Both the position numbers and the translations under genes were made by a program. The notes under the pieces were generated by a model. It was not told the origin of the DNA. It ran no database searches and worked only from the letters and a program-made list of their open reading frames with translations. A stretch of 29,561 bases of DNA. Origin: a virus. This document shows positions 5,266 to 22,270 of this stretch, in pieces (position 1 is the stretch's first letter; every line of letters begins with the position of its first letter). The stretch covers positions 1 through 29,561 of the IMG/VR virus record IMGVR_UViG_3300042446_000903; one strand, given 5' to 3'.

Positions 5266-5283
5266 TTTCTGTAAGGAGAATTT

Positions 5284-5487: not shown

Positions 5488-5491
5488 TCAC

Positions 5492-7089: not shown

Positions 7090-7107
7090 TTTCTTTAAGG
7101 AGAATTT

Positions 7108-7311: not shown

Positions 7312-7315
7312 CCAC

Positions 7316-7564: not shown

Positions 7565-7572
7565 TTTAAAGA

Positions 7573-7588
7573 CTACGAAAGTTCGTAG
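7573..7588. terminator. Possible bidirectional hairpin between convergent genes
   Basis: CTACGA, loop AAGT, TCGTAG makes a perfect 6-bp stem exactly where the + and - strand genes converge, overlapping the stop codon of the - strand gene. Only a weak T-rich tail follows on the - strand and none on the + strand, so a Rho-independent terminator is only possible. Confidence 0.3.
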
Positions 7589-8643
7589 AAGCCTTTACCC
7601 CAAAGCGTCAGCAAACGGTTGAAGTATTTTTCATACAGAAGAGCGTTGGTATCTAGACCAAAACGGTTAACTGCGTATTCCCTGATGGCTTTACGGTCAA
7701 GTTTTGGGGCTTCTTGCGCGGCGTCAATAAACTGCTGCAAGGTACGACATCTAAAACCGTTAACCCCCTGAATCACATTTTCAGGGAAAGCGCCCCAATC
7801 TGTAGTGATTACCGGCGTCCCACATGCCATGGCTTCAGCTACGACTAATCCAAATGGCTCGGTGTAAATAGTTGGGACAAATGATGCAATTGCGCCCCCC
7901 ATTAGCTTGGCTCGTTCCTCTGTGCCAACAACCCCTACGTACTCGCCGTAATCGGGCACAGTTCCCTGTCCAGCGACCACCAGACGCTTTCCTAGGTGTC
8001 TACAGACGTCTACGGCCACCTGATAGCCCTTTCGGTCAATAAGGCGTCCTATGAAGAGGTAATAGTCATCAGGCGTCTCCCTGAATGGGAAGTCCCTTAT
8101 GTCAACATGGCCAGGGATTACATCGTCATAAAACTGACCGTCTACGTCATTGGGGTTGCCGGCCGCAGCTCCGTAGCAAACATGCATCCAGGCATAGGAC
8201 TCAAATACCTTGTACTTCGCGAAAGTTCCTCCGTACCCAACTTCAAACTCCACGGTCATGTTTTGAGGGAAAGCATCAGCAATCACTTTGTGCGCCCGTC
8301 CACCGATTACACAAATGAAGTCTTTGGGCTGGATTCGCTTAGCCATCTCCTCGATAGCCGTGTTGTTGAACTTCACCCAGTGAGGCAGGGCGTAGTCAAA
8401 AGACGCAAGGGAATAATGCTTGCCCTCTAGGGAGTCAAGGCGCTCCTGCTCGGAAATGCACATGATGTTCTCATCACAGGGTGCGTCAGTAAATTCCCCG
8501 CCATAGAGGTAAACCTCATGGTTGAGGGATTTCATCATTATTGCAAATTTACGAACATTCTCAGTAAAAGCGCAAGCCGTGAAATCTAAGGTCGTATTAG
8601 CGTGTGGTAAACCAACTACGTGGAAGCGCAAGTTTTTCCCCAT
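7573..8643 (-). CDS. GT4-family (GT-B fold) glycosyltransferase
   Basis: A 356-aa retaining glycosyltransferase of the group-1 type. The C-terminal nucleotide-sugar-binding half is clear: FIGRLIDRKGYQVAVDVC at about 197-214, LVVAGQG at 221-227, then the signature E262-P-F-G-L-V-V-A-E270 (E-x7-E) and AMACGTPVITTDWGAFPENV. The N-terminal half is a plausible acceptor domain. It is probably soluble or peripheral, with no membrane segment. It is the last gene of the long - strand cluster, directly after collagen-like fibres, so Ser/Thr residues of those fibres or host surface sugars are candidate acceptors. The start ATG at 8643 has only a weak AAGAGA ribosome site and lies inside the remnant HNH frame. 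Donor and acceptor cannot be told from sequence. Confidence 0.88.
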   Translation of the reverse strand: MGKNLRFHVVGLPHANTTLDFTACAFTENVRKFAIMMKSLNHEVYLYGGEFTDAPCDENIMCISEQERLDSLEGKHYSLASFDYALPHWVKFNNTAIEEMAKRIQPKDFICVIGGRAHKVIADAFPQNMTVEFEVGYGGTFAKYKVFESYAWMHVCYGAAAGNPNDVDGQFYDDVIPGHVDIRDFPFRETPDDYYLFIGRLIDRKGYQVAVDVCRHLGKRLVVAGQGTVPDYGEYVGVVGTEERAKLMGGAIASFVPTIYTEPFGLVVAEAMACGTPVITTDWGAFPENVIQGVNGFRCRTLQQFIDAAQEAPKLDRKAIREYAVNRFGLDTNALLYEKYFNRLLTLWGKGFYELS

Positions 8644-8789
8644 TCTCTTGTTTTTGTTTTGGCATTGTCATCATACTTTATTTCTTGCATAACGCTCACG
8701 CCCCAACCGACAGATGCTTTCCAAACCCAGCACTCCTCACGAGAGCCGATATCTACTTTGTCCCAAAATCTATCAGCAGTTTTTGTCAT
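8616..8789 (-). pseudogene. Remnant of an HNH-type endonuclease (N-terminal fragment)
   Basis: A 57-aa frame lies between the fibre at 8812 and the glycosyltransferase, overlapping the start of the latter by 28 bases. It begins MTKTADRFWDKVDIGSREEC and continues CWVWKASVGWG. The pattern RFW-x-KVD ... (E/D)CW-x-W is the hallmark N-terminus of free-standing phage HNH endonucleases. After about 30 residues the resemblance is lost. The His-Asn-His catalytic core is missing, and the frame runs out inside the glycosyltransferase gene. No good ribosome site is seen. It is most likely the leftover of a homing endonuclease gene deleted from this spot. Confidence 0.6.
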
Positions 8790-8811
8790 GCCGAAAATAC
8801 TAGCAGTAGTG

Positions 8812-9573
8812 TTATTTAAACTGCGTCAACGACTCTATAACCGTAAATGCTGCTGAGCCGGTTTTGATTAAAGTGACCGTATATAAATCAATACTTGAGG
8901 CGTTTCCTGCTGAAGGAACTATGCCGAATTGCCATTTTGGCGTTACCGCATTGCCGTCAATCGTAAAACCAGTTTGACGATACGGCGTCACTCCTGTCGT
9001 GGCCATGAACACGATGGTCATTGATTGACCCGTACTCATGACGGTATTCAAGGAAGTTGAGTTGTCGCCCCTGATGTTTAAAGTCCAGTTCGCCGTAGCG
9101 GCATCCGAGTAGTACAACAACGCCTGTGTCTTGACATCAAAATGAACCGTCCCTGTTGCTGCCGTAGCCGTGTTGGTTATCACTTCAAGAGGGGAAGTTA
9201 AAACAATATTTGTAGTGGTTGCAGGTCCGCTTACGCCCGAAACACCGCTTACGCCCGAAACACCGCTCACTCCCGAAACGCCCGATACTCCACTTACGCC
9301 CGAAACCCCCGACACGCCGCTTACGCCACTGACCCCAGAAGGTCCACTTACGCCACTAACTCCCGATACGCCAGAAGCGCCTTGTGGGCCAGAAACTGTG
9401 GAGGCGATACCACTTACGCCCGAAACACCTTGAGGTCCTGTCGGTCCCGTTGGTCCAACGACACCCAAAGAGTCGACATTGAGCGCCCATTTACCGTCCG
9501 TGTATGTCCACGTTTTTCCGTTTACGGTGTGGTTAGCACCGGGCGAGGGTGAGTTGGGAAAATCAATAGCCAT
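8812..9573 (-). CDS. Collagen-like tail fibre with Gly-Val-Ser repeats (253 aa)
   Basis: The N-terminal anchor ([20 protein letters not shown] then DGKW, residues 4-30) is a short module shared with fibres at 10416, 19492 and 22040. Residues of about 38-120 are collagen-type G-x-y triplets, starting [10 protein letters not shown] and continuing mainly as Gly-Val-Ser. The C-terminal 130 residues are a beta-rich head (TTTNIVLTSPLEV, TANWTLNIRG, MSTGQSMTIVFMATTG, YTVTLIKTGSAAFTVIES), of a kind common in aquatic phage fibres. There is no clear Shine-Dalgarno, but a TATAAT lies 8 bases before the ATG. This gene is probably one of several receptor-binding fibres. Confidence 0.8.
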   Translation of the reverse strand: MAIDFPNSPSPGANHTVNGKTWTYTDGKWALNVDSLGVVGPTGPTGPQGVSGVSGIASTVSGPQGASGVSGVSGVSGPSGVSGVSGVSGVSGVSGVSGVSGVSGVSGVSGVSGVSGPATTTNIVLTSPLEVITNTATAATGTVHFDVKTQALLYYSDAATANWTLNIRGDNSTSLNTVMSTGQSMTIVFMATTGVTPYRQTGFTIDGNAVTPKWQFGIVPSAGNASSIDLYTVTLIKTGSAAFTVIESLTQFK

Positions 9574-9580
9574 GCTTGCA

Positions 9581-9586
9581 ATTATA
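9581..9586 (-). promoter_or_regulatory. Candidate -10 box before the 253-aa fibre gene
   Basis: Perfect TATAAT on the - strand, ending 7 bases before ATG 9573. No convincing -35 is found at 16-18 bp, and no ribosome site lies between the box and the ATG. Transcription would start almost at the ATG, giving a nearly leaderless message. The match could be chance. Confidence 0.3.
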
Positions 9587-9626
9587 CCCTGAACCAGTTA
9601 AGGGGAATCACATGAAATACAATGAG

Positions 9627-9645
9627 AAAACGCCGGAATTGCCGT
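9627..9645 (-). terminator. Weak hairpin plus T-run after the 51-aa gene
   Basis: On the - strand an imperfect inverted repeat (ACGGCAATTCCGGCGT) is followed by TTTTCTC, 13 bases past the stop of the 51-aa gene and upstream of the TATAAT. It could separate transcription units, but the stem is short and mismatched. Confidence 0.22.
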
Positions 9646-9657
9646 TCTTGTTTAGGA

Positions 9658-9813
9658 TTATTCCTCTGATGGTTTTTCTTCGTTAACAATATCTGGCATA
9701 TTACCCTGGTCCAGCCATTCTCTATATTCCGCATCAAGCCAACCCACCTCTGAACCACCTTCTTTTGTTACCTTTTGAATTCCACCACTAGTTATTATTT
9801 TAAACAAACTCAT
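9658..9813 (-). CDS. Small fibre-linked protein, 51 aa
   Basis: A short gene whose ATG (9813-9811) overlaps the TAA of the upstream fibre gene (TAATG), indicating translational coupling. The product begins MSLFKIITSGGIQKVTKEGG and has an acidic C-terminal half with EYREWLDQGNMPDIVNEEKP. The 'Y-x-x-W-x-x-x-GN-x-P' motif recurs in the 50-aa gene at 22270-22422, which is also coupled to fibre genes. Similar short proteins are frequent beside phage tail fibres, and an assembly or tail-fibre-accessory role is inferred. About 80 bases without any supported gene follow it, up to the 253-aa fibre. Confidence 0.6.
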   Translation of the reverse strand: MSLFKIITSGGIQKVTKEGGSEVGWLDAEYREWLDQGNMPDIVNEEKPSEE

Positions 9814-10403
9814 TATGCCAACCAGTAGAAAGTTACATAGGTTACTTCGGTGTGGACGCCGTTGCCGAGATACCCTGTGAGTCCTATTTGATAAGGGGTC
9901 TGGACTCCACTCCAGTCTCCATAACGCACTTCTGTAATTGTTACGGTGTTATTAACGCCAGTAGTGGGGTGAACATTTATGAGGTTGTAGACACTGCACC
10001 CTGAAGGCATGTTTACTAGATGTAATTGGTTTGAGGTGTTAAAGGGAACAGTAACAGCAGCAGAACGAACAATGTTTCCCGCGTTTCCTCCTTGCGAATA
10101 ATTGGTAGAAGAAATAGAAGTAGAGGAAAGAGTCGGAGCGACTACGGTTCCGGTAAAAGTTGGGTTATTCATGTTTACAGTGCCAGTTGGTCCAGTTGCT
10201 CCGGTTGGTCCAGTTGTACCACTAACACCACTAACTCCACTTACGCCACTAACTCCAGAAACTCCACTAACCCCAGATACTCCACTTACACCACTAACAC
10301 CGGAGACTCCAGAAACGCCCGAAACACCCGAGACGCCAGAGACACCAGTTACAATCGGAACCCACTGTGAACTACCGCTATCGTATTGTTTTAAAACTGT
10401 CAT
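9813..10403 (-). CDS. Collagen-like tail fibre with long Gly-Val-Ser tract (196 aa)
   Basis: A very short N-terminal anchor (LKQYDSGSSQWVPIVT) of a type common at fibre bases is followed directly by about 13 uninterrupted Gly-Val-Ser triplets, then [13 protein letters not shown]. The C-terminal 130 residues form a beta-rich head (NNPTFTGTVVAPTLSS, NQLHLVNMPSGCSVYNLINV, HTEVTYVTFYWLA). An NPTFTGT segment after a collagen-like stalk is typical of phage fibre shafts. AGAAAG serves as ribosome site 8 bases before ATG 10403. It is coupled to the 51-aa gene downstream. It is probably a trimeric receptor-binding fibre, with target unknown. Confidence 0.78.
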   Translation of the reverse strand: MTVLKQYDSGSSQWVPIVTGVSGVSGVSGVSGVSGVSGVSGVSGVSGVSGVSGVSGVSGVSGTTGPTGATGPTGTVNMNNPTFTGTVVAPTLSSTSISSTNYSQGGNAGNIVRSAAVTVPFNTSNQLHLVNMPSGCSVYNLINVHPTTGVNNTVTITEVRYGDWSGVQTPYQIGLTGYLGNGVHTEVTYVTFYWLA

Positions 10404-10415
10404 TTACAATTCTTT

Positions 10416-11786
10416 CTAAGACTTTATAATGTAGTTAAGAACCATTGTAGGCTGCATGTTGTTATGAGCCGATGAAGCATTTGCGGCGGTATTATCAACA
10501 TTTGTGATACCAACAGTCCCTGTCGCGTTGGGGCCACCCGTATCGCCGTACACAGGCGTGTAGTGGTTAAAGTTTCCCGTACCGGTCAATAGACCACCGG
10601 CCTCAATTGAGTATGTTGCTGTCCCTGGACCAGTTACTGTTCCTGCAATATAGCCGATTCTGTTTGGGTTGTTATTAGTAGCACCAATAGCAGCGGTCAG
10701 ACTACCCGCACCGTGAGCGTGTCCGCTAGAAGCAAAAGTTGTCGTACCCGTCAATGTGTTGGCATGAGAGTGAGTAGGAACTCCTGATTGTGCAGAAGTC
10801 AAAGTAACTGTTTCAGCACCAGTCGTTGTTCCTGGTGTATTTGCAATACTCAAAAGGTTGGCATCCACGCCGCCCATGTTGTCAATACCAGCAACCGTAC
10901 GACCACGAAGGTCAGGGAGACAGAAATCCGTTCCTGCTACGACACCAGTATTGTAGGTAGTTGAAAGAACAGCGAACAATGCAGCATAAGTTGTTCTAGA
11001 TACCGCTTGTCCGTAGCAAAGCAACCAACCTGTTGGTGCCGTAGAACCTGCGTATGGATTTATTACTCCCGTAGGTATCGCTTGAGTTACAAACGCTGTG
11101 GTTGCAACGGCAGTTGTGTTGTTCCCGGCGCTCTGAGTTGTGGCAACGGTTCCAGTTGGAAGAGTTACGGTTCCTGTAAAAGTAGTGGGACCTGCAAGGT
11201 TGGCTTTTAGTGCTAAATCAGAAGAAGTGACCGGCGTAGCCCATGCCGTGTCGTAACTAACAGACGAAGACTTCGCCAGCATTTGACCCGTTGTTCCACC
11301 GGCAGGAACTACAGCCACTCCAGCAACTGAAGTATCCGCCCAAAGAACGTCGAAAACCGTAGGAGCTGTTCCCTGAATGACAACACCCGCAACCCCTGTT
11401 GCTCCAGTCGGGCCAGACGGGCCAGTCGGCCCACCAGCTGGGCCCGTAGCGCCCGTTAGTCCAGTTGCGCCGCTTGGACCAGTCGCACCAATTACACCAG
11501 AAACACCAGAAACACCACTAACCCCCGAAACCCCACTTACCCCCGAAACTCCGCTTGGCCCGCTTGGACCGCTTGCGCCAATACCGGTTGGTCCAGTTGG
11601 CCCGGTTGCTCCGGTTGGACCGCCCGCAGGTCCGGTTGCCCCAGTTAATCCGGTTGGCCCAGTTGGACCAACCACGCCGACCGTGCTGACGTTAAGAACC
11701 CATTTGCCTCCAGTGAATGTCCACGTCTTGGAGTTGGCCGTAAACAATGCTCCTGGTGAGGGGGAGTTTGGAAAATCAATAGCCAT
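10416..11786 (-). CDS. Collagen-like fibre with phage tail-collar domain (456 aa)
   Basis: The N-terminus ([20 protein letters not shown]) is almost the same as in the 253-aa fibre. Residues of about 38-135 are mixed collagen-type triplets ([17 protein letters not shown], then Gly-Val-Ser, then [10 protein letters not shown]). A spacer carries [12 protein letters not shown] and [11 protein letters not shown]. From about residue 235 the phage tail-collar / microcystin-dependent-protein domain is clear: [52 protein letters not shown]. The end is His/Gly-rich ([34 protein letters not shown]), resembling the metal-binding C-termini of T4 gp12-like short tail fibres. AGGGG precedes ATG 11786. It is the best-supported adhesin of the - strand cluster. 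Confidence 0.88.
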
Positions 11787-11810
11787 ATGCCCCTATTTTA
11801 CACTACGTTT

Positions 11811-12560
11811 CTATTGGGTTCTGGCCCACTGAATGACTTTTCGGCTTGTGTGCTGTGCGATGCAGTTGTCCCCAATTGAGGTGATGTCGTAGCCAAGAGA
11901 CTCAACATAGGAAATAATCTCCTTGCGTCGTTCTTGATACCAGTCCATAATGCTCCACGTCTCAAAGATGATAGGTGGGTAGTTGTTTGCCTTGAGGGTT
12001 TCTAGGCCGCCCTTGATGACTGCAAACTCAAGACCCTCAACGTCTATCTTGATGAGTCTGATGTTCTGAAATTCGTAATTATCCAGTCGGTCAATCTGTA
12101 TCTTTTCCATCTTGCCCTGACTGGCGCACTGATTGTTGTTCTCGTGAACGCCAGCATCCAGACTGAAAGCGCCAATATTTACTTCAACGGAATAATCAGG
12201 AGTTGACATCTCTATTTCGAACGCGGCATCTCCGAGTCCTTTATTGATGGGGTAAACGTTCTCTAATCCATTCAGGACAAGGTTGGCGCACAACTGATAG
12301 AAAACTATCCTCTGTGGTTCAAAACCGTAGAACTCAATACCGGGGAATTGTTTAGCCAAAGGAACAACATAAGTTCCGACATTGCTGCCGATATCTAGGA
12401 TTACTCCGTCCTTGTTGTCTCCAACCAGGATTGTTGAATAATATTCCAGCCATGCGTCATGACCAGCACCTGACCGAAGTCCGTCACTGATTACGTCGGG
12501 CTTATCAAAGATAAGAAACTGATTTCCCCTGCATTGAACTACGAGCATATTAGGCAGCAT
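11811..12560 (-). CDS. FkbM-family SAM-dependent methyltransferase
   Basis: A 249-aa class-I methyltransferase. The SAM-binding motif DIGSNVGTY is at 56-64, the motif-II acidic loop FYGFEPQ at 77-83, and the family hallmark IKIDVEGLEFAVIKG at 170-184, typical of FkbM (Methyltransf_21) enzymes that O-methylate sugars or small molecules. No membrane segment is seen. It lies between two small genes and the collar fibre in the enzyme island. Methylation of a fibre- or host-attached sugar is the likely kind of role, but the acceptor is unknown. A second methionine at position 5 is an alternative start. Neither start has a strong ribosome site. Confidence 0.88.
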   Translation of the reverse strand: MLPNMLVVQCRGNQFLIFDKPDVISDGLRSGAGHDAWLEYYSTILVGDNKDGVILDIGSNVGTYVVPLAKQFPGIEFYGFEPQRIVFYQLCANLVLNGLENVYPINKGLGDAAFEIEMSTPDYSVEVNIGAFSLDAGVHENNNQCASQGKMEKIQIDRLDNYEFQNIRLIKIDVEGLEFAVIKGGLETLKANNYPPIIFETWSIMDWYQERRKEIISYVESLGYDITSIGDNCIAQHTSRKVIQWARTQ

Positions 12561-12571
12561 AAAAATTTATT

Positions 12572-12856
12572 CTAAACCCACCAGAAGTGCTTAATGATTG
12601 AAAGACTCGCCAGGATAACCCAAGCCACATTGAAGAGAATAATTGTTGGAAGCGTCTTTTCGGTAGATGACCAAATGAGGGCGATGCTTGAAGCGATGGC
12701 GAAGATGTAAACCCACCACCACTGGTAGCCAAGAAGCAGGCCAGGGAAGATGATGGCAATTTTGGTAGAAAACCCCCAAGCCTCTACGATGTTTGGTTTA
12801 GTCCAATACCCCTTGTGAGACATCGTCTTCGTTGCTTGTATTACTTTGTTTAGCAT
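12572..12856 (-). CDS. Small integral membrane protein, 94 aa
   Basis: An unrecognised protein with a short basic N-terminus (MLNKVIQATKTMSHKGYW) followed by two or three hydrophobic stretches, around residues 28-48, 49-66 and 70-90 (IAIIFPGLLLGYQWWWVYIF, ASSIALIW, TIILFNVAWVILASLSII). It is tryptophan-rich. The arrangement is loosely like the small helical-pair units of PnuC-type transporters but far too short to assign. The gene starts inside the preceding 69-aa frame (59-bp overlap) and ends 11 bases before FkbM. A role in the host inner membrane is inferred from hydrophobicity only. No lysis motif is seen. Confidence 0.6.
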   Translation of the reverse strand: MLNKVIQATKTMSHKGYWTKPNIVEAWGFSTKIAIIFPGLLLGYQWWWVYIFAIASSIALIWSSTEKTLPTIILFNVAWVILASLSIIKHFWWV

Positions 12857-13007
12857 TTTTTTTGTATTGTTTCTCTAAATTAATTAAATGTATTAAAATT
12901 ATAAATTGGTCGTGACCGCCAAACCAATGCAACCACCAACAGAACTTGTCGTTTCCTTCTTTAGTGTTTGGAAGGTAGTGGTTATCTACTCGCCTGCTGT
13001 GACTCAT
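12798..13007 (-). CDS. Small hypothetical protein, 69 aa
   Basis: ATG 13007 lies 2 bases after the stop of the upstream oxygenase gene, suggesting coupling. The product starts MSHSRRVDNHYLPNTKEGND, has an aromatic and histidine-rich middle (KFCWWLHWFGGHDQFIILIH) and a charged tail. The middle looks like genuine protein, but the last 19 residues are read from DNA that also encodes the start of the 94-aa membrane protein in another frame. No family is recognised. It is kept as probable because it fills an otherwise empty interval in a gapless operon. Confidence 0.45.
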   Translation of the reverse strand: MSHSRRVDNHYLPNTKEGNDKFCWWLHWFGGHDQFIILIHLINLEKQYKKNAKQSNTSNEDDVSQGVLD

Positions 13008-13009
13008 CT

Positions 13010-13588
13010 TTAATACCCTAAAAGATTTAAATGAGAGTTTTCCTTTTTGTCGTACGCATGGCTAGTCCAGGGACCATTGGCGTCTACGTAATGATAGAAA
13101 CCTTGAATATGGTAGGAATCTTGGGGGACGTTGAATACGGGTCGGAAGTGGTTGACGTCCATCCCCCTGTAGATAGCGCCGTCACCCGGTTTCATTACGA
13201 CTGGAGTATCTCCCATGACGAGAGGCCATTCATAATCCTTGCGGCGATAGTTGTATTCGTAGCAGACACTTACAGAGATTTCGCAAGCAGGTCTGTCTAT
13301 ATGTGGGGCCAGTTCCTGACCACGCCTGTAGACCCTGTAAAAAGAGTATGTAGGGATTAGTGACAACCCCGTGACTTCTTCCACTTTTTCTTTGTAATCA
13401 AGAAGCAGAGACTCCATTAGGAAGTCCGCATAAACGGCATGGGCGTTAATTACCTGTGCTGTGTCCGGGCTAAAAGAATACGCTTCTTTTAAGAGTGCAT
13501 ATTTTGACACAAGAGAGACAACCGAGGCGTCTACAAAATCAGGTACGTGAACATAGTTGTCTAAAAGAAAATCTCTTGTCTTACTCAT
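13010..13588 (-). CDS. 2OG-Fe(II) oxygenase-like protein (second of a pair)
   Basis: A 192-aa protein with a probable double-stranded beta-helix iron site: H96-x-D98 in LAPHIDRPACEISVSVCY, then WPLVMGDTPVVMKPGDGAIY, and a distal His in GMDVNHFRPVF (H147) followed by SYHIQGFYHYVD. The order H-x-D, beta strands, GDG turn, distal H and a terminal aromatic strand matches small 2-oxoglutarate dioxygenases. The 2OG-binding Arg is less certain, with R149 close by. Such enzymes hydroxylate protein side chains or small molecules. The first 8 bases overlap the end of the other oxygenase gene. Sequence similarity between the two is low, so they probably have different substrates. Confidence 0.65.
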   Translation of the reverse strand: MSKTRDFLLDNYVHVPDFVDASVVSLVSKYALLKEAYSFSPDTAQVINAHAVYADFLMESLLLDYKEKVEEVTGLSLIPTYSFYRVYRRGQELAPHIDRPACEISVSVCYEYNYRRKDYEWPLVMGDTPVVMKPGDGAIYRGMDVNHFRPVFNVPQDSYHIQGFYHYVDANGPWTSHAYDKKENSHLNLLGY

Positions 13589-14162
13589 AAGAGAGCCATG
13601 TCACAAGAGAGTACCTAACACCTTCACTTACGGGGTGGACGATATGCGGGAATGAATAACAAGAAGGGAAAAAAACAACATCGCCAGCAGATGGCTCGTA
13701 TGTTATTCCCAAAGTTGGGAACTCTAGTTTTCCTCCTTCAAAATCGTCATTTAAAAAAGCAATCATAGATAGCACTCTGTTTTTATGAGCACCACCGCAA
13801 TCAAAGTGCTGCTTATATTCTGTTCCCTTTTCGTATTTTAAAACAAAATACCCTTCATCAAACAAACCGCCTAAATTATGATGGTCGGCATATTCTGAAG
13901 TAGCCCCAGTTACTGCGTTAAAAATATATTCATCAAGTTTTTGTATGTCGTCACGGACCATAATAGTGCTTGCCAATGGCAGGCTCTTGTTGCTTCGGTA
14001 AAGGTTTTGAATGCTCGGTTCGTTTCTGTCTTCATACGTACTGGCATATTCCCAATTTAAAGAAACGTCATCGTCTATTGCTTTTTCTATAGAGTCAATA
14101 ATGATTTGAGGTTCTTTCAACAATTTGTCATAAACCCATAATGAAGGGTGGAGTACTTGCAT
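13581..14162 (-). CDS. 2OG-Fe(II) oxygenase, prolyl-4-hydroxylase-like
   Basis: A 193-aa dioxygenase of the 2OG-FeII_Oxy_3 / P4H type. Metal ligands are visible as H119-x-D121 (EYKQHFDCGGAH) and H173 (FPHIVHPVSEGVRYSLVTWL), with R183 ten residues on for 2-oxoglutarate. Between them are LSMIAFLNDDFEGGKLEFP and PSAGDVVFFPS, standard strands of this family. Phage members are common but their substrates are mostly unknown. Proline or other side chains of the collagen-like fibres encoded on both sides would be natural candidates. Its start overlaps the stop of the 247-aa unknown gene by one base. Confidence 0.88.
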   Translation of the reverse strand: MQVLHPSLWVYDKLLKEPQIIIDSIEKAIDDDVSLNWEYASTYEDRNEPSIQNLYRSNKSLPLASTIMVRDDIQKLDEYIFNAVTGATSEYADHHNLGGLFDEGYFVLKYEKGTEYKQHFDCGGAHKNRVLSMIAFLNDDFEGGKLEFPTLGITYEPSAGDVVFFPSCYSFPHIVHPVSEGVRYSLVTWLSYE

Positions 14163-14905
14163 TATTTTTCTTTTTTGGCTAGTTCAATATCAACTTTATG
14201 CTTGTGGCGTCTATACGGTCCTGCGGTGCCTAGTGACGGCATGATGTATCCGGAACCAAAGCCACTACTCGCAACATACTTAAAATAAGATTCGTCTTCA
14301 AACTCAATGGATGAAAGATTAGTGCTTCGTTTAAACGGAACTACCTGCATCATTGGTGTTCCGTATGGAATCATAAAGTCCGTGTTGGCTTTTATGTTTA
14401 AAACAATATTGGTTACATGATAAAAATCAGTATGAACAATTGCCGGCAAAACATCATAGTTCTGACTTGGCTCCCACGAAATGGGAAGTATCAAAGAAGA
14501 CCACCCAGGTGCAGTCTCAAAACGCCACGGAGTTACAATTTTTGGATATTGCATATTTTCAAGTTTGCGAACTCCGACAACAGGGCATCCAGGCGTGTCT
14601 TGAACAGAGAAACCCTGTACCCCAATATTTTCAAGTGGTGGGCTCATATTTTCAATGCGTGATTCCCAGAATCCATTTTCTGGGTTTGGCCTGAAATACA
14701 GATTGCTCCAAAGAGGAACAGTCATTCCCGCTGCTAGGTAGTCATTAACGCCTGCACACTTTTTCAAACCAGCACCACTAGGCATTGTCTTGTACCATTT
14801 AGGCATTGATAATTGCGAGTTTAAATATGGAGGCATCTCCATTAAGCGGTTATCTTCTGGCGTTACTCTGATATGTCCTGGTTTGACCGACTTTTTCTTT
14901 TTCAC
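14162..14905 (-). CDS. Conserved-looking phage protein of unknown function, 247 aa
   Basis: Not assigned to a characterised family. The sequence has a basic start (MKKKKSVKPG), then MPKWYKTMPSGAG, LKKCAGVNDYLAAGMTVPLW, VTPWRFETAPGWSSLILPIS, DFMIPYGTPMMQVVPFKRS and a basic C-terminal tail. The combination 'K-K-C-x-G-x-x-D-x-x-x-x-G-x-x-x-P-x-W' with later 'P-W-x-F-x-T-x-P-G-W-S' is one I associate with uncharacterised phage and bacterial proteins found near oxygenase genes. No known catalytic motif is visible. Its ATG overlaps the stop of the halogenase (ATGA), so the two are translationally coupled. A linked job, for example carrier, substrate or partner, is inferred. Confidence 0.6.
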   Translation of the reverse strand: MKKKKSVKPGHIRVTPEDNRLMEMPPYLNSQLSMPKWYKTMPSGAGLKKCAGVNDYLAAGMTVPLWSNLYFRPNPENGFWESRIENMSPPLENIGVQGFSVQDTPGCPVVGVRKLENMQYPKIVTPWRFETAPGWSSLILPISWEPSQNYDVLPAIVHTDFYHVTNIVLNIKANTDFMIPYGTPMMQVVPFKRSTNLSSIEFEDESYFKYVASSGFGSGYIMPSLGTAGPYRRHKHKVDIELAKKEK

Positions 14906-16398
14906 TGCTCGTATTCCTCGTCTAAGTTTTGAATTTCTAACAATCCATCTTTATGGTCAACCAACTCGTGATTGTGCCTGGAGTTCCTAAAGTTGTCCAT
15001 TTCCAAATTGACTTTTTGTCGCAGGTTTAGTCTATCAAGGGCAAGCGAAGATGGTTCTTTTGGTAAAAGCCCTTGGCCTTGCATAACGTGAACTAAATGA
15101 GGTACATGAAACATTAGGTTTATCTCTTGGTAATGGTCATACCTGGATGGAACTTTTTCAGACCATAAATCAATTAGTTCTTGAAGTTCATCATTAAGAG
15201 GCATCTCAGATTGGTCAATCCAAAATTGTGAGTCTCGCCTATCGGAAACGTAATGCAACCTAATCATTGTCAGTATATTACGCATTGTTTCAGTAATCGT
15301 TTTATTGTACGCAATCTGCATTTTTGATGATTTTTTAGTATATGAAGCGACGTTCTGAATAAGCATTTTTAATTGAATTAAAGTACTGCCGATACTGGTG
15401 GCTTCCAGGGGTTCAACAAACGAGGAAGCAAGGCCTACAGAGACACAGTTTTTCACCCACTGGTTTTTTAAGAAACCTGCATCGTATTTAAAAGTTTTAG
15501 GATTTTCTGGGACCTTATATCCAGTCATCGCTTGCGCTTCTTCAATAGCCTTATCTACAGATATGTGAGAAGAAGAGAAGATGTAACCGTTACCACGACG
15601 TTCTTGCGTTGGTATTTCAAACATCCACCCAGAAGATGCTGCCCTGGCTCGGGTGTATGGGCGAATCTGTCCATTAGGGTCAGACTCTGTTGGGAAAGCA
15701 ATTGCTGAATCACAAAGAAGATACGGGGAAAAAGACTCCCATTCAGTGTTTCCTAGTTTTGTCATAAGAACTCTGGAAAAACCACTGGCATCAATCCAAA
15801 AATCAGCAGAAACAACTGCTTGCTGTTCTGTTGTTACTGAAGATATTTCTCCAGTTTCTGAATCAAGTTCTATTGAGTTAACTTCTGCATCAATGAATTT
15901 AATCATTCTCGCAAAACATAGTCCTGTTAAATAGTCGTTTAGTTTATTTGTATCAAAATGAAACTGATTTGTTGTCTTGTGGATGTTTCGTCTACCAATT
16001 TTGTTCTGCACAAGACCCGCACTCCCCGTCTGAGAAGTAATTAGTTTATTGGAGTCAACAAACCCAGCATAGGTAGCAAACAAACCATGCGCAAATATTT
16101 CGTCCACTCCACCAATGCTGTGAAAATAGTCAGGGGTATGAGTTGTCCAGTTTTCAAAACGGAGACCATACTTATGGGTTGCGCTCGTGTTCTCAATAAG
16201 TTCACCAGTTGGAATGTCGCAGTCGTTCATGAACTCACGCCAGTGTTCTGTAGAGCCTTCACCAACGCCAATAATTCCTATTTTGGAAGAAGAGATTATT
16301 GTAATTTCAGAATTAACAAATGCTCTCCGAAGCAATAAGGCAGAAACCAATCCGGCAGTTCCTGAACCGACAATGCAGAATGATAAATTGTTATTCAT
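14902..16398 (-). CDS. Flavin-dependent (tryptophan-type) halogenase
   Basis: A 498-aa enzyme of the tryptophan halogenase family, which uses FADH2, O2 and halide to make hypohalous acid. Visible features are the FAD-binding GSGTAG at 11-16, GVGEGST at 44-50, the catalytic lysine candidate K76 in SATHKYGLRFENW, and EPLEATS at 329-335 containing the conserved glutamate (E332). The diagnostic W-x-W-x-I-P motif is altered to GWMFEIP at 257-263, and the Ser usually after the Glu is Ala. Cyanophage VirX1, a characterised viral halogenase, belongs to the same broad group and prefers iodide. A free-substrate or protein-bound aromatic acceptor is possible here. No flavin reductase gene is seen nearby, so reduced flavin would come from the host. 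Confidence 0.9.
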   Translation of the reverse strand: MNNNLSFCIVGSGTAGLVSALLLRRAFVNSEITIISSSKIGIIGVGEGSTEHWREFMNDCDIPTGELIENTSATHKYGLRFENWTTHTPDYFHSIGGVDEIFAHGLFATYAGFVDSNKLITSQTGSAGLVQNKIGRRNIHKTTNQFHFDTNKLNDYLTGLCFARMIKFIDAEVNSIELDSETGEISSVTTEQQAVVSADFWIDASGFSRVLMTKLGNTEWESFSPYLLCDSAIAFPTESDPNGQIRPYTRARAASSGWMFEIPTQERRGNGYIFSSSHISVDKAIEEAQAMTGYKVPENPKTFKYDAGFLKNQWVKNCVSVGLASSFVEPLEATSIGSTLIQLKMLIQNVASYTKKSSKMQIAYNKTITETMRNILTMIRLHYVSDRRDSQFWIDQSEMPLNDELQELIDLWSEKVPSRYDHYQEINLMFHVPHLVHVMQGQGLLPKEPSSLALDRLNLRQKVNLEMDNFRNSRHNHELVDHKDGLLEIQNLDEEYEQ

Positions 16399-16404
16399 TT
16401 TTAC

Positions 16405-17484
16405 CTAAGAATATGCTATGTAAGACTTGATGTAGTTAACTTCAAGAATCCACTGACTTAGCGTCAAGTCAGTGAAGGGCGGAATTTGCTCCAATATTTC
16501 TAGTGGAGACAAAGACGACTCTATACCATACTTAATGCATATTTCGTATATTTTTGATTCAATGTGTTGTCGTTCCGAGGAAAGTATTTCTTCTGGCACA
16601 ACGGGCGGAGAAGGATGGTTGTGCACCAAAGCATTTAGTGTTCTGTATCGGTGAGTACTCTTTACCCAGTTCAAAAATAAGGGGCCGACGCTGGCCTGCT
16701 CCGTAAAACCATGTCGCGTATTTTCTTGATTTTGAAAGTATCTGTAAACAGGCATATCTTCCTGATATTCAGATATCTCGTTTAGCACGTTTTCTGGTAT
16801 CTGAAGAGTTTCAATATAATTTTTACATGCTAAAGAAACTTCATTATCGCTATCAAATGGACTCTCTGTTAGGGATGCCCATTCAATAATGAGTTTCATT
16901 AGACCCATAGGGGTTTTTGTAACAGCAGTTACAGCAGGCCAATCCCTAAAGGAATCATTAACACCGGGTATGAAACCATATACAACATGAGCAACACCGG
17001 CAGCACCAAGCATTACTGTTACTTTACTAATGTGTTGAAACAAAACAGTGTCTGTCACTGTAGGGCGCACCCCATCTTCTAAGGGAAACTGAACGGGTCC
17101 ATATTTTCCTGCGTCACAACGGTCCATAAAATCTACGGCGTCTTTACTGGCCGTAGCAGGTGTCATTACCTTGGAAGACATCACGCAATACATGTCTTCT
17201 TCTTTGATGGAGTCTTTAACAAAGTGCTCTAAGATGTCGTCATAGCAAATAGCGTCAATGATTGACTCTTGGTTATTACGGACAAGAACATAGTTAAAAT
17301 CACCAGAGTAAGGGTCTAGTTCTTTAAAGGCAATAATCGTCTTTCCATCCGAAGTAAACGTGTCATATTCCGTATATTCAATGTTTCCACTAGGCGTTGG
17401 GGTGTACAACTTGAAATCAGCCGTGCCGTCAATGCCGTAATAGCACTTATAGTTTGCTATTTCTATCAGCGAAATGTCGCTCAT
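16405..17484 (-). CDS. Hypothetical protein upstream of the halogenase, 359 aa
   Basis: No family recognised. The protein is acidic and globular with no membrane segments. It starts MSDISLIEIANYKCYYGIDG and has a beta-rich first third (NIEYTEYDTF, TIIAFKELDPYSGDFNYVLV), a middle with KVTVMLGAAGVAHVVYGFIPG, and a helical last third rich in aromatic residues (FLNWVKSTHRYRTLNALVHN, LTLSQWILEVNYIKSYIAY). AAGG precedes the ATG by 6 bases. The stop lies 6 bases before the halogenase start, so it is in the same unit and may be its partner or substrate-handling protein. It could also be a virion protein closing the fibre section. Confidence 0.6.
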   Translation of the reverse strand: MSDISLIEIANYKCYYGIDGTADFKLYTPTPSGNIEYTEYDTFTSDGKTIIAFKELDPYSGDFNYVLVRNNQESIIDAICYDDILEHFVKDSIKEEDMYCVMSSKVMTPATASKDAVDFMDRCDAGKYGPVQFPLEDGVRPTVTDTVLFQHISKVTVMLGAAGVAHVVYGFIPGVNDSFRDWPAVTAVTKTPMGLMKLIIEWASLTESPFDSDNEVSLACKNYIETLQIPENVLNEISEYQEDMPVYRYFQNQENTRHGFTEQASVGPLFLNWVKSTHRYRTLNALVHNHPSPPVVPEEILSSERQHIESKIYEICIKYGIESSLSPLEILEQIPPFTDLTLSQWILEVNYIKSYIAYS

Positions 17485-17494
17485 TTTTTACCTT

Positions 17495-17722
17495 TTAAGA
17501 CAGTGCAGCAATTTTTGCATCTGCACGTGCGATGTTTGTCAACAATGACGTTACTCGTGCTTCATTGCCTGTTGGTGGTTCTGCGGGAACCCATGTCGTT
17601 GCGTCAAATTCGTCAGGGTCAATCCCTAGTCCTACAAGGAGTCCATACACCTCGTTCAGCATATGCTTCTTGGTGTCGCCCAGTGATTTGATTTTTTGCT
17701 CTGTAGTTAAGTTGAATTCCAT
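17495..17722 (-). CDS. Small helical hypothetical protein, 75 aa
   Basis: Has a good GGAG ribosome site 5 bases before ATG 17722. It begins MEFNLTTEQKIKSLGDTKKH, carries a DPDEFDATTWVPAEPPTGNE loop and ends with a heptad-like helix (SLLTNIARADAKIAALS), suggesting a small coiled-coil protein. It lies directly after the His-rich fibre gene and 10 bases before the 359-aa gene. The function is unknown. A fibre accessory or assembly factor is possible from position. Confidence 0.6.
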   Translation of the reverse strand: MEFNLTTEQKIKSLGDTKKHMLNEVYGLLVGLGIDPDEFDATTWVPAEPPTGNEARVTSLLTNIARADAKIAALS

Positions 17723-17737
17723 GATTTCTCCGTTTTG

Positions 17738-19489
17738 TTAAGCGTTAAGAAGGATATAAGTGGTTCCAGAAGAAGCCGTATGAGTGTCGGATGCTGCTGT
17801 GGTGCCAGAGCGCACATCGTAGGACAATCCAGACGGTGTAGTTTCTGTCAAGATAAGAATAGCACCACCACCACCTGCTCCGCCTCTTACTCCGCTTGCG
17901 CCTGTAGTTCCAGCGCCTCCTGCACCGCCTGTGCCTCCAGCGCCTCCAGCGCCTCCTGCGCCCCCTGCCCCTCCTGCGCCCCCAGCACCTCCAGCACCTC
18001 CAGCCCCTCCAGCCCCTCCAACATAATGAACAGTTGCATTGGCGACATGGGTTGCATGAGAAGGGGAATGAGGGTTTACGTGCTGCTGGTGATGAGGATT
18101 TGTGTGCACATTTGTATGTGGATGTGTTGTGTGGTGTGGGTGTACGTGGTGACCCGTATGACCACCGGCAGTATGGTGATGCCCCACATGGTGGTGTCCA
18201 CCATTAACCGTGTGACCTGCATAATAACCATTCTTAGGGTCGTGCGAGTCGCAGCAATGGTGGTGTGGGTTTACTGTATGCGTATGGTTTACGTGGTGAT
18301 GAGTCGTATGGTGAACCGTATGGTGTCCACCAGGGGTGTGATGGTGACCATTGGGAACATGGTGACCACTTGCAACATGGCCATTGTTCGTATGATACGG
18401 AGTCCCATGGTGGCCATTGTTTATATGAGTTGGAGTAGCCGAATGGGGAGTAACCGTGTAGTCGGGGGCTTTTGTTCCGGCAGCACCAGTAACTCCGGTT
18501 GCACCCGTGGTTCCCGTGGCTCCCGTGGTTCCTGTTGCGCCCGTGGTTCCAGAAGCGCCTGAAGCACCCGAAGCGCCCGCAACGCCAGTAGCACCAACAG
18601 CACCAATCATGGCAAGAGACATAACTGTTCCGGTTCCCGAAATATTCTTGGCAATAATAGCGACTACCGGTCCACCCATTCCGCCAACTCCACCAACACC
18701 GCCTGCACCAAGGACGCCAGATGCTCCCTGTGCTCCGCTTGCTCCTCGTGCTCCAGAAGCGCCGCTTGCGCCAGATGCTCCCCGTGCTCCAGAAGCGCCG
18801 CTTGCGCCAGATGCTCCTCTGCCACCAGCCGCGCCTACCGTTAATCCGTCACTAGGATGTCCGCCTGCGGTTCCTGCAACCCCTGTTGCTCCTACTGCTC
18901 CTGCGATTCCTGTGGCTCCTGTAAGTCCTGTGGCTCCAGCAATTCCTGTTGCCCCTGTTGCTCCGGTTGCTCCTGAAGAACCCGCAACACCCGAAGCACC
19001 TGTAGTTCCACTAGAACCTCCTGCTAACGCAATAGGTGTAGGGCCGTAAACAGCGTCAATAATTGCGCCACCAAGCATTGAAGTGACGCTTTTAAGAAGG
19101 TACGTAGGAAGAGCACTGACGTTTGGGTTGGTGTTTCCTCCGCCTTGTCCACCCAGTCGGTAGGTAATAGCACCAGAAGTATGACCAGAAAGCGTTCCTG
19201 TTAAAACAGCAGAGGCAGTACTGGCGATTGTTCCATTGCTGGAGCCAGCAGTATTGCCAGTGACGTCACCAATACCGACAACACCGTTGATGATTGCAGC
19301 GCCTTTGACGAACACTTTAAAACCCGAAGTAAGAAGAATGTTTCCTAAAGGAACGGTCAGTGTGTTGTAGTACATGTCCCTAGTAAGGGTTACGGTTCCG
19401 CTGATGGTCACATCGCCATCGGTGCCTGTTCCGTAAACAGCGTCATTTCCTGAACGAACAACAATGTTCTCAATTCTTGAAATTGCCAT
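17738..19489 (-). CDS. Glycine-repeat fibre with a 140-residue histidine-rich segment (583 aa)
   Basis: Domains in order: an N-terminal beta domain (residues 1 to about 75; AVYGTGTDGDVTISGTVTLT, RDMYYNTLTV, GFKVFVKGAAI) shared with the 254-aa fibre; a spacer; a long collagen/poly-Gly-type tract from about residue 160 to 345 (GATGATGIAGATG, GASGASGARGAS, GGVGGVGGMGG); a segment at 349-488 with 47 His in 140 residues (many H-x-H and HHH clusters and one HHHCCDSH); a (GGA)n tract at about 491-530; and a C-terminal GGGGAILILTE cap. Glycine-rich triplet tracts can form polyglycine-II bundles, as in phage S16 gp38. H-x-H sites in T4 fibres bind iron. This density of His would allow a large metal-loaded stalk, but that is inferred. 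Confidence 0.82.
   Translation of the reverse strand: MAISRIENIVVRSGNDAVYGTGTDGDVTISGTVTLTRDMYYNTLTVPLGNILLTSGFKVFVKGAAIINGVVGIGDVTGNTAGSSNGTIASTASAVLTGTLSGHTSGAITYRLGGQGGGNTNPNVSALPTYLLKSVTSMLGGAIIDAVYGPTPIALAGGSSGTTGASGVAGSSGATGATGATGIAGATGLTGATGIAGAVGATGVAGTAGGHPSDGLTVGAAGGRGASGASGASGARGASGASGASGARGASGAQGASGVLGAGGVGGVGGMGGPVVAIIAKNISGTGTVMSLAMIGAVGATGVAGASGASGASGTTGATGTTGATGTTGATGVTGAAGTKAPDYTVTPHSATPTHINNGHHGTPYHTNNGHVASGHHVPNGHHHTPGGHHTVHHTTHHHVNHTHTVNPHHHCCDSHDPKNGYYAGHTVNGGHHHVGHHHTAGGHTGHHVHPHHTTHPHTNVHTNPHHQQHVNPHSPSHATHVANATVHYVGGAGGAGGAGGAGGAGGAGGAGGAGGAGGTGGAGGAGTTGASGVRGGAGGGGAILILTETTPSGLSYDVRSGTTAASDTHTASSGTTYILLNA
18026..18445 (-). other. Histidine-rich segment of the 583-aa fibre
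   Basis: Codons for residues 349-488. By direct count 47 of 140 residues are His, interspersed with Gly, Thr, Asn, Val and Pro in units such as NGHHHTPGGHH, TVHHTTHHHVNHTH and HPHHTTHPHT. It is bounded sharply by AGTKAPDY on one side and by YVGGAGGAGG on the other. Both His codons, CAT and CAC, are used, and there is no long perfect DNA repeat. Selection on the protein rather than simple triplet expansion is therefore likely. Confidence 0.9.
18747..18817 (-). repeat. 36-bp-period tandem repeat in the fibre gene
   Basis: A 35-bp stretch beginning CGTGCTCCAGAAGCGCCGCT at 18747 is repeated exactly from 18783. It encodes GASGASGASGAR twice and indicates recent duplication within the glycine-triplet stalk. 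Confidence 0.85.
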
Positions 19490-19491
19490 AG

Positions 19492-20256
19492 TTAGACCTG
19501 CTGAATGTAATTTACAGTTCCAGCGTTTGCTCCGGTTACATCTGTTGAGATAGTACCAGGGAGTGCGCTTGCGGAAGAGACTATGAGTATGACGCCACCA
19601 CCAGCGGGTGCAGTTGCTGGTGCTTGAATATATCCAGTTCCAGATGATGGACCGCTGATGTAACGAGCAGCAAGGATGACAACTCCGCCACCTGCCTGTC
19701 CAGTACTACCAGCGCCTCCACGAAGGAACATAGGTCCTCCTGTTGCCGTTATGGTGTATCCAGTGATTGCCTGCATTGGTTGTTTGAAGTAACCAAGTCC
19801 ACCCATTGTTGCATGAGGCGCAGTGGCTGTATAGGTTGCAGTTGCGTTACCGCCAAGACTGTGTGTCACTGACGTAGTTGCTGCTCCACCTTGCATGATT
19901 GAACCCAAAGATGCGTATCCAGTCGTAAAGCCAACAATAGAACTTGTACCAAAACGTAAGGTTCCCTTAACAAAGATTCTGTAACCGTTAGGGGCCAGAC
20001 GAACGCTGTTGCCCAATGTCAAATCGTTAAAATACATATCTCGCGTCATGGAGTAAACGCTCGCAGATGGAACCATGCTTAAGACTGTTGTTGTTCCGTC
20101 TAAGGTGGCATCACCGTCAGCACCTGTTCCGTAGATGGAGTCAACGCTTTCGTTGAAGTAAGCGTTCCATACATAACCGTCCCATTGCCAACTCTTAGGG
20201 CCAATAGTAAAAATCTGATATTGATACGGAGAAGCAGGAAAAGTAATCGCTGACAT
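19492..20256 (-). CDS. Glycine-rich fibre/adhesin, 254 aa
   Basis: Has the FPASPYQYQIFTIGPKSWQW anchor (residues 5-24), then a beta domain (SIYGTGADGDATLDGTTTVL, TRDMYFNDLTLGNSVRL, GYRIFVKGTLRFG) that is paralogous to the N-terminus of the His-rich fibre directly downstream. The C-terminal part contains small glycine clusters (GGAGSTGQAGGGVVILAA, APAGGGVILIVSS), the kind of end cap that closes polyglycine-type phage adhesins. No long collagen tract is present. Its start overlaps the stop of the 594-aa fibre (TAATG), and the His-rich gene begins 2 bases after its own stop. It could be a short form of, or partner to, the His-rich fibre. Confidence 0.72.
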   Translation of the reverse strand: MSAITFPASPYQYQIFTIGPKSWQWDGYVWNAYFNESVDSIYGTGADGDATLDGTTTVLSMVPSASVYSMTRDMYFNDLTLGNSVRLAPNGYRIFVKGTLRFGTSSIVGFTTGYASLGSIMQGGAATTSVTHSLGGNATATYTATAPHATMGGLGYFKQPMQAITGYTITATGGPMFLRGGAGSTGQAGGGVVILAARYISGPSSGTGYIQAPATAPAGGGVILIVSSASALPGTISTDVTGANAGTVNYIQQV

Positions 20257-22040
20257 TAAACACCACCAATATCTTCAACCAGTAAATACGCAGGTTCTGT
20301 TGCTGACGCTTTCCATGTTGTGTTTGTGGCTGCATTGGACACCACACGAGCAAATACAGTTTGCGTACCTGCTGCAAAAGTTGTAACACAACTACAAACG
20401 CTGCCCTGTTGAAGGCTTGCGGAAGGGTAATAAATTAATGTATTTGCAATAATTGTTCCGCTAGTAGTAGCGGTTCTTAGGTAATGGTTGTTTACTGACG
20501 CATTTACGCCGTTATCTACTTTTCCCTCTACCCATGTTATTTTGTAGTAACGATTTGCAACCGCAGTCCATGTGACGCTAGCCCGTGTTACTTCAGTACT
20601 GCCATTACTTGTTATGTTGCTTGTAATGTTGGCTAAAGCCACAACACCTCGTGGTGCCTTGGTTAGCGCAGAAACAACCTCAACCCACGCTGAGCCACTG
20701 TATAAATAGAGAAGGTCTGTGTCAGTCTCATAAATCGTCTGACCTTCCCACGGTGCAGATGGACGAGTAGACGAAGTAACTGGTAGTGGCGACATTGCAC
20801 CGCCACCTAGTTCAACCCAAGCAGAGTTGTAGTAGATGTACGAAGAACCGGTAGTTGTGTCAAACCAAACTTGACCAGCAGTTGGTGATACTGGTGCAGT
20901 TGCAGAACTTGTAATTCCTATAGGTCCTGTTGGTCCTGTTACGCCCGTTGGTCCTGTTGGTCCTGTTGGACCAGTCGCACCTGTCGTGCCACTCACGCCC
21001 GAAACACCGCTAACACCAGATACTCCAGAGACTCCTGAGACTCCTGAAATTCCGCTAACACCGCTTACGCCCGATACGCCTTGAGGACCTGTCGGACCCA
21101 CTGGTCCGATACCGCCGGTTTCTGCGAACTCAATTAGGTCTGTGCCGATTTTAATAGCACCGCCAGCAGCAGTTCCGTAATTCGTTTGAATGAACGTTTG
21201 ACCTGCATGGTCACCTTGAGCAACAAGAGTAAAGTCTCCGTTTTCAACTTCGCCAGCAATACTGTTATCAAAGTCAGTTGCGCGAGTGAACTTAAATTTA
21301 GAACCCGCCGAACCGAGACTGGTTACGGTGTAAATACCGTTTTCAACTTTATTTGTTCTTCCCGAAAAAAGAACACGGTCACCAACAATGATTGTTGCTC
21401 CGCCGACTGTAGAAATAGCACCATTAGCATTTGCTTCAATGTAGGCACCAATACCAAAGCCTTCACTTGCATCTGCAGTTCCAGCAAAGTAAGTACTTGC
21501 GTCTTGCGTGTCTTGAACTGTTACGACAGATGCGTGAGCGTTTTGTGCTCCAGGAACACCAGAAACTCCGCTTACGCCCGATACGCCACTAACTCCAGAG
21601 ACACCAGAAACACCCGACACCCCTGAAACTCCAGAAACGCCCGTTGCTCCGATTACTCCACTGACACCCGATACTCCAGAAACGCCCGAAACACCAGATA
21701 CTCCGGAAACTCCAGAAACGCCTTGAATTCCCGTAGGACCAGTCGCTCCCGTTGCACCTATGACACCACTTACACCACTGACTCCGCTTACACCTTGTGG
21801 ACCAGTAGCACCAATAACACCGCTGACGCCAGAAACTCCAGAAACTCCACTGACTCCGGAAACACCACTGACACCTTGAGGTCCAGAACTGTAGGCAAGA
21901 GAAGTCCAAGCAGTTGTACCGGTACCTACCTTGAATTTACCTGTATCGGTTTCTGCGCCGAGTTCACCTACAGCAAGCGTTGGGTTTGCAGCCGTCCACT
22001 CTGCGGCGGTGCCACGTCTAAATTGAATCTGAATAGCCAT
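20256..22040 (-). CDS. Collagen-like fibre with Mtd-type N-terminal domain (594 aa)
   Basis: ATG at 22040 is chosen over the TTG three bases upstream because AGGAGGTG (22052-22045) is then correctly spaced and the ATG overlaps the previous stop (TGATG). Residues 1-50 ([35 protein letters not shown]) match the N-terminal domain of the Bordetella phage major tropism determinant, a common fibre anchor. Two Gly-Val-Ser/GATG tracts flank a folded domain with [26 protein letters not shown] and TRATDFDNS, also found in the 437-aa fibre. After the second tract come two repeated 'P-G-Q-x-W/I-x-x-x-T-x-x-Y-x-Y-x-x-x-AWVE' units ([39 protein letters not shown]) and a beta-rich head. It is a probable receptor-binding fibre. 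Confidence 0.85.
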
Positions 22041-22270
22041 CAAACACCTCCTGAATCAAGCGAAGTAATGCCACCGTAATTGGTGGACGGGAAGCCCCCA
22101 TCAATATTAGCAATAGAAACCCCTGTTGGACCTATAGGACCAGACGGACCTACCGCGGTTTGGGCTTGCAGGTTCCATGCACCAACCGTTGTTGAATAAA
22201 CCCATGTTTTATCGCCATTGGTGAATACTTGCCCGTTCGTCGGGGATGTAGGAAAGTCTATTGTAGGCAT
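22040..22270 (-). CDS. Mini-fibre protein with anchor and three collagen triplets, 76 aa
   Basis: Begins IDFPTSPTNGQVFTNGDKTW, the same N-terminal anchor as the larger fibres, then GPSGPIGPTG, and ends abruptly with NIDGGFPSTNYGGITSLDSG. It may be a remnant of a longer fibre or a real short tail protein. The latter is favoured because phages often encode small proteins with this D-G-G ending next to fibres, and both its start and stop overlap neighbouring genes (TAATG upstream, TGATG downstream), showing it is maintained in frame. Function unknown. Confidence 0.65.
   Translation of the reverse strand: MPTIDFPTSPTNGQVFTNGDKTWVYSTTVGAWNLQAQTAVGPSGPIGPTGVSIANIDGGFPSTNYGGITSLDSGGV
22045..22052 (-). 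promoter_or_regulatory. Strong ribosome binding site deciding the 594-aa fibre start
   Basis: AGGAGGTG on the - strand lies 6 bases from AGGAGG to ATG 22040 and only 3 bases from the alternative TTG 22043. It is embedded in the end of the 76-aa gene. This favours the ATG. Confidence 0.75.

Follow-up and report, generated by a model that had tools for sequence, protein, structure and literature searches.

A virus-encoded gene of the flavin-dependent halogenase family is linked to tail-adhesin genes and may act on the phage's own tail

A viral gene for a protein of the flavin-dependent halogenase (FDH) family, here called HAL, is a fixed companion of the tail-adhesin gene pair g23-g22 and of g18, a gene whose product is predicted to have the dUTPase fold. 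This genetic statement is the strongest that is supported. The analysis further suggests that such viral halogenases may chemically alter the tail of the virus itself rather than produce a metabolite. If the tail linkage reflects function, the substrate would be a virion protein, and a viral adhesin would be halogenated enzymatically, which to our knowledge is known nowhere else. The sequence analyzed, a virus record of 29,561 bases in IMG/VR, is referred to as the window. HAL and the genes around it are as follows.

19492..20256, minus strand: g23, tail protein paired with g22, a conserved marker of the cassette
17738..19489, minus strand: g22, collagen/Gly-rich, tail adhesin-like protein of 583 aa (Pfam Collagen, tail-fibre PHROGs)
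17495..17722, minus strand: g21, small conserved protein between g22 and HAL
16405..17484, minus strand: g20, lineage-specific, outside the core cassette
14902..16398, minus strand: HAL, FDH-family protein of 498 aa, ATG start
14162..14905, minus strand: g18, phrog_7084 family, predicted dUTPase fold
13581..14162, minus strand: 2OG-Fe(II) oxygenase a (Pfam PF13640, 1e-15; phrog_61, 6.5e-31)
13010..13588, minus strand: 2OG-Fe(II) oxygenase-like protein b (phrog_2954, 3.8e-42; no Pfam match)
12572..12856, minus strand: g14, small, conserved, Trp-rich, apparently membrane-spanning; downstream marker
11811..12560, minus strand: FkbM-type methyltransferase (TIGR01444, 3.8e-22)

The product of 13010-13588 is a putative 2OG enzyme on the basis of matches shared with oxygenase a. 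The label ‘ferrochelatase’ carried by phrog_2954 is probably a misannotation.

HAL, whose minus-strand location goes unmentioned in the initial annotation, is confirmed as a genuine open reading frame and a virus-encoded member of the FDH family. Residues 8-452 match Pfam Trp_halogenase PF04820 with 341.8 bits and E=8.5e-102 (cut-off 21), and PHROG 2928, ‘tryptophan halogenase’, matches at 2e-97. The AlphaFold model (pLDDT 90.2, pTM 0.90) retrieves Xcc4156, PrnA, PyrH, Thal and BrvH in a Foldseek search, with E about 1e-39 and TM 0.83-0.89. The initial annotation had read this gene as a viral FDH, which the PF04820 match and the PrnA/PyrH/BrvH fold bear out, and the structural comparison that it had proposed agrees for its PrnA part. 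The top PDB sequence match is BrvH with 197 bits; VirX1, a characterised cyanophage halogenase from another lineage, gives 127 bits, and HAL is related to it in fold and in chemistry class. The dN/dS of HAL against five relatives is 0.035-0.048. Thus the gene is under strong purifying selection and the protein is maintained.

Genes that are 100% identical to those of the window's stretch are present in a second record, IMGVR_UViG_3300043436_003224 (L001). To judge from relatives among lake and marine phages, the source phage would be aquatic. One relative (L120) was binned with an Actinomycetota MAG, which is weak evidence on the host.

Four sites of HAL bear on catalysis.

16351..16368, minus strand: FAD-binding GSGTAG, G11-G16, located from the sequence
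16171..16173, minus strand: catalytic Lys K76, equivalent to K79 of PrnA/Thal, located by alignment to solved FDHs
15610..15630, minus strand: GWMFEIP, residues 257-263, with W-to-F at position 260 of the GWxWxIP motif
15394..15420, minus strand: FVEPLEATS, a variant of Fx.Px.Sx.G, with catalytic E332 and A333

The presence of K76, E332 and the FAD motif, already pointed out in the initial annotation, extends to the relatives. G11, G13 and G16 of the GxGxxG motif are invariant. K76, which aligns with the Lys of BrvH, AbeH and Xcc4156, is kept in 90/90 distinct relatives, and E332, the counterpart of PrnA E346, in 88/88 of those having a residue there. The first Trp of the WxWxIP motif does not vary either (89/89).

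At position 260, 77 of the 90 distinct relatives have W, 11 have F and one has L, and GWMWEIP is present in relatives 74% identical to HAL. On a maximum-likelihood tree of 58 FDHs, built by a quick search and having long branches, F260 has at least four origins, i.e., in the clade of the window and, separately, in L028, L094 and L099. GWMFEIP is best read from these alignments as a recurrent, conservative W-to-F change of minor weight inside a family with a GWxWEIP norm. Variants and absences of WxWxIP are known in true FDHs (PMC8407142). The altered motif singled out in the initial annotation is real but weak, and its importance is not supported: because F recurs sporadically and VirX1 has a normal GWVWNIP, the W-to-F change is not the interesting feature. 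The sporadic recurrence among relatives also led to its rejection as a functional switch.

The difference between EPLE-A and EPLE-S, missed in the initial annotation, is by sequence comparison the more informative active-site change. A333 is found in 88/88 relatives, and Ser is at that site in BrvH, AbeH and Xcc4156. In Thal, PrnA and PyrH a Ser occupies the same position, with Lys79 and the Glu (PMC7948982). The Fx.Px.Sx.G motif reported for active FDHs (PMC8407142) is not matched by HAL, with Ser replaced by Ala and Gly by Ser in FVEPLEATS; the alternative FX[DE]PX[EFL] of the same review is matched (F-V-E-P-L-E). EPLE-A is common to the HAL clade, P-SSM2, S-H38, HTVC008M and many bacterial FDHs and is therefore an old subfamily trait, and one change from EPLE-S to EPLE-A suffices on the 58-FDH tree. 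The loss of Ser beside E332 could reduce the halogenating activity of HAL.

Free-Trp halogenases have the substrate motifs Trp1 (ATIPSL/ATFST) and Trp4 (PMC8269204). HAL has GSTEHW in place of Trp1, and no Trp4 motif is found around residues 417-452. Therefore the family name ‘tryptophan halogenase’ should not be read as the substrate of HAL.

A search with HAL as query recovered 32 viral loci. Close, well-covered relatives (roughly 47-100% identity) display the gene order g23, g22, g21, (2OG or g20), HAL, g18, usually with further 2OG genes. The cassette is absent from two loci (L030, L031) whose halogenases have about 30% identity to HAL. Against circularity, markers other than HAL were then used as queries, namely g23, the g22 N-terminus and g14, and the best 80 loci were taken from 114, 420 and 175 relatives, respectively, with contigs that overlap between the sets. 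With g23, HAL is present in 63/63 loci that have at least 3.3 kb downstream; with the g22 N-terminus profile, in 59/59 loci that have at least 3 kb downstream. With g14, HAL, g18 and the g22/g23 pair are all present in 63/63 loci that have at least 7 kb upstream. No halogenase-negative relative was found among the best 80 loci of any of the three markers. In all loci with enough flank from the g23 and g14 searches, g18 adjoins HAL. It should be noted that the relatives are mostly uncultivated contigs, probably of one related phage group, of which all cassette genes may simply be core genes.

Two closely similar contigs, L271 (positions 2797-18688) and L273, carry two complete cassettes each. 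The two copies have identities of 58% for g23, 46% for g22, 48% for HAL and 37% for g18. Thus each adhesin copy retains its own halogenase and g18. Among the 80 loci listed for bacterial homologues, the same module is seen just in L120 and L121, which are phage-like MAG contigs; in the remaining 78 the FDH is about 29-35% identical and g18 is absent.

The genes on both sides of HAL had been described as coupled to it and as suggesting a defined pathway. The coupling stands for 14162-14905 (g18), an obligate partner, but not for 16405-17484 (g20), which is not core, and the context suggests a module for a tail adhesin more than a pathway for small molecules. No family match and no structure match were found for g20. 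It is missing at that place in L006 and L013 and is located elsewhere in L014 and L019. With no matches and a position outside the core, g20 was rejected as a pathway partner.

The partner g18 is predicted from profiles and modeling to be a dUTPase-fold protein. Six of 30 homologues match Pfam dUTPase PF00692 (best 5.1e-10) and two of 30 match DUF6065, weakly. The g18 profile finds almost only dUTPases in the PDB (top E=0.005), and dUTPases are also the best Foldseek matches of the AlphaFold model (pLDDT 81.9), with E=1e-4, probability 1.00 and TM 0.78 on the target. The motif-3 Asp of dUTPases is catalytic. The g18 of the window has His there; in the g18 clade His is the replacement in 24/30 and Asn in 6/30, and dUTP hydrolysis is therefore unlikely in the g18 clade of the window. 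The Asp is kept, as judged by eye, in the g18 homologues of Syn10, S-RIM44 and P-TIM40. Relatives of g18 without an adjoining FDH occur in Sf-CH8, S-RIM4 and the haloarchaeal virus HF2, the last with no halogenase annotated beside it.

The adhesin-like protein g22 has collagen repeats (PF01391, 8.1e-12) and also matches tail-fibre PHROGs. Between the collagen-like and GGA repeats lies a block of distinct composition.

18023..18448, minus strand: block of g22 rich in His (47 of its 142 aa, with 4 Tyr), ending Tyr489-V-GGAGG

The block is without Trp and Phe, and there is no Trp in all 583 aa of the window's g22. If g22 is the substrate, the target must therefore be Tyr or His. In 62 distinct homologous blocks, His averages 27.3%, versus 1.0% in the remaining protein. 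Tyr is present in all 62, and most end in [YW]-x-GG-x-GG. Trp as the universal target within g22 is rejected, given that 21/62 blocks have none and that the window's g22 lacks it altogether. The block as a strict partner of HAL is also ruled out, since L029, L121 and the second L271 cassette have little or none of it. Dozens of related phages have homologous His-rich blocks, about 60-240 aa long, that may be metal-binding.

Several tail proteins of the window, in 9813-11786 and 20256-25673, display long Ser-Gly-Val collagen-like repeats (SGVSGVSGV), whose length may differ among relatives. A pair of paralogues (3844-5265, 5536-7089), fibronectin-type-III-like and with Cys-rich repeats at their C-termini, look like further host-contact proteins, and each is followed by one of two near-identical 67-aa genes (5284-5487, 7108-7311).

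The reading that is favored, tentatively, is that HAL is an active FDH-type enzyme whose target is the tail adhesin of the phage itself. The adhesin is proposed as substrate through guilt by association from the gene linkage. The missing Trp1 and Trp4 motifs and the sub-threshold NCBIfam matches to LodB, QhpG and GoxB count in favour of this reading. The window has no recognisable flavin reductase gene, and FADH2 would be supplied by a host flavin reductase in the infected cell. HAL would form the C4a-hydroperoxide and then HOX from halide and O2, and K76/E332 would pass HOX to aromatic side chains of the co-encoded g22 (Tyr, possibly His). The g18 protein would be an obligate accessory factor, perhaps an adaptor for the substrate or a scaffold, with further modifications contributed by the 2OG oxygenases. 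The modified adhesin might have its receptor binding, metal binding or stability tuned.

An alternative that is unlikely, though slightly ahead of the other rivals, keeps the tail protein as substrate and changes the reaction: HAL would be a QhpG-like flavin monooxygenase that hydroxylates or oxidises aromatic residues. The Ser-to-Ala change next to E332 is clade-wide, W-to-F is tolerated in a motif said to block monooxygenation (PMC8407142), and the 2OG oxygenases encoded nearby come from a superfamily of hydroxylases. In NCBIfam, HAL has weak matches to LodB (1.1e-7), QhpG and GoxB, far under their cut-offs. However HAL is much nearer to true halogenases than to LodB and QhpG, and its K76, E332 and the first Trp of the motif are invariant. 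Given the Ala in place of Ser and the weak matches to LodB and QhpG, hydroxylation is a possible reaction besides halogenation.

Reports of halogenases in cyanophage genomes go back well over a decade, and VirX1 has been a subject of biocatalysis research. No native substrate of VirX1 or other cyanophage halogenases was found in the literature consulted. In the portions of PMC10452541, PMC2984593 and PMC7824862 that deal with phage halogenases, the readings offered are auxiliary metabolism, antibiotic protection and secondary metabolites; the reading in PMC7824862 concerns the S-SSM6a cluster. A link between halogenase and tail is absent from the halogenase passages of PMC2984593 and PMC7824862. 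For HAL, this view would mean an auxiliary metabolic gene for small-molecule halogenation, whether of an antibiotic, a signalling compound or a sugar/capsule decoration, and it is judged improbable here. Glycosyltransferases and the FkbM methyltransferase lie near HAL, and VirX1 takes many small arenes in vitro (PMC8407142). On the other hand the core cassette has no recognisable scaffold-building enzyme. Modification of the tail is placed above the published readings for this clade because the fixed partners of HAL are tail proteins, along with the dUTPase-fold protein, and because adhesin and halogenase are duplicated together, two tail-adhesin copies accompanying two halogenase copies.

Far less probable is the suggestion that HAL is a VirX1-like halogenase with a halide or substrate range altered by the W-x-W-x-I-P change. 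It draws on VirX1, an enzyme with a preference for iodide and an open site (PMC8407142, PMC7948982). However, VirX1 itself has the standard GWVWNIP, and its unusual range is therefore not due to that motif; moreover F is sporadic in close relatives of HAL and VirX1 belongs to another FDH clade. Least probable of all is that HAL no longer halogenates and serves the adhesin as an assembly factor or chaperone that binds flavin, which would fit the obligate tail linkage but not the conserved catalytic residues and the strong purifying selection.

The surroundings of HAL can be compared with those of VirX1. Syn10 CPUG_00131 (L034, 13502-15094), annotated ‘hypothetical protein’, is VirX1, as it matches PDB 6QGM over its full length. 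The annotation ‘tryptophan halogenase’ is carried by the adjoining CPUG_00132, so that Syn10 has two tandem FDHs. The VirX1 gene comes directly after this other FDH gene and shares an overlap with a homologue of g18 (HMM 2.8e-15); upstream lie Gly-rich adhesin-like genes, and the genes downstream are 2OG-like. This order recurs in S-RIM44, P-TIM40 and Sf-CH3, the last with one FDH, not two, and two downstream genes of S-RIM44 are 2OG oxygenases by Pfam. VirX1 and HAL thus have in common a viral FDH, an adjoining g18, adhesin-like genes and 2OG genes. They differ in that VirX1 has EPLE-S, the standard GWVWNIP and a distant sequence, and in that the VirX1-type cyanophage FDHs form a supported clade separate from that of HAL, set among bacterial FDHs. 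A wider phage system is possible, and is put forward more guardedly than the role of HAL itself, in which an FDH, a dUTPase-fold partner and 2OG oxygenases accompany an adhesin gene and halogenate or flavin-oxidise the phage's own adhesins, built with different FDH lineages in the group of the window and in cyanophages. In that case VirX1, too, would have a tail protein as its native substrate.

Other phage FDHs vary in their surroundings. The nearest relatives from isolated phages, those of P-SSM2, S-H38 and S-SCSM2R (PHROG 2928; 34-37% identity), have EPLEA and form a sister clade, but unlike HAL they lie outside a tail cassette, and no g18 is near the genes of P-SSM2 or S-H38. FDHs outside tail modules are found in P-SSM2, P-SSM5, Syn1, S-MbCM6, S-B64 and S-SCSM2R. 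In S-SRM01 the FDH is flanked on one side by tail-fibre genes and on the other by a gene with the annotation ‘gp37-gp38 adhesin tip complex’. DSL-LC01, recorded as an actinomycete phage from lake water, has two collagen genes a single gene upstream of its FDH. On the tree, each of these two FDHs has a long branch of its own. The DSL-LC01 gene between the collagen genes and the FDH (L349, 8542-9912) encodes a Tyr-rich protein, in which 40 of 456 residues are Tyr. It has a YHYH domain (PF14240), and its end matches cupredoxin-like proteins weakly. It is a candidate substrate that deserves comparison with g22.

BrvH (PDB 6FRL), the best PDB sequence match to HAL, also lacks the Trp4 motif (PMC8269204). 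It differs from HAL in being bacterial and in having EPLE-S, and related bacterial FDHs are found without g18 or tail context. For g18 the closest known group is the dUTPase superfamily (PF00692) with DUF6065, judged by the predicted dUTPase fold, and g18 differs from it at the motif-3 Asp. By eye, g22 resembles the glycine-rich gp38-type tail-fibre adhesins of T-even phages, since it is Gly-rich and has a variable aromatic/His insert between glycine repeats; no homology was detected, and the collagen repeats and His-rich block set g22 apart. LodB and GoxB are FDH-like flavoproteins that act on a co-encoded protein. Like these, and distant from HAL as they are, QhpG is a protein-acting FDH-like enzyme, a monooxygenase of quinone-cofactor biogenesis that dihydroxylates peptidyl Trp (PMC7876137). 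Thus there is a precedent for this enzyme class working on proteins.
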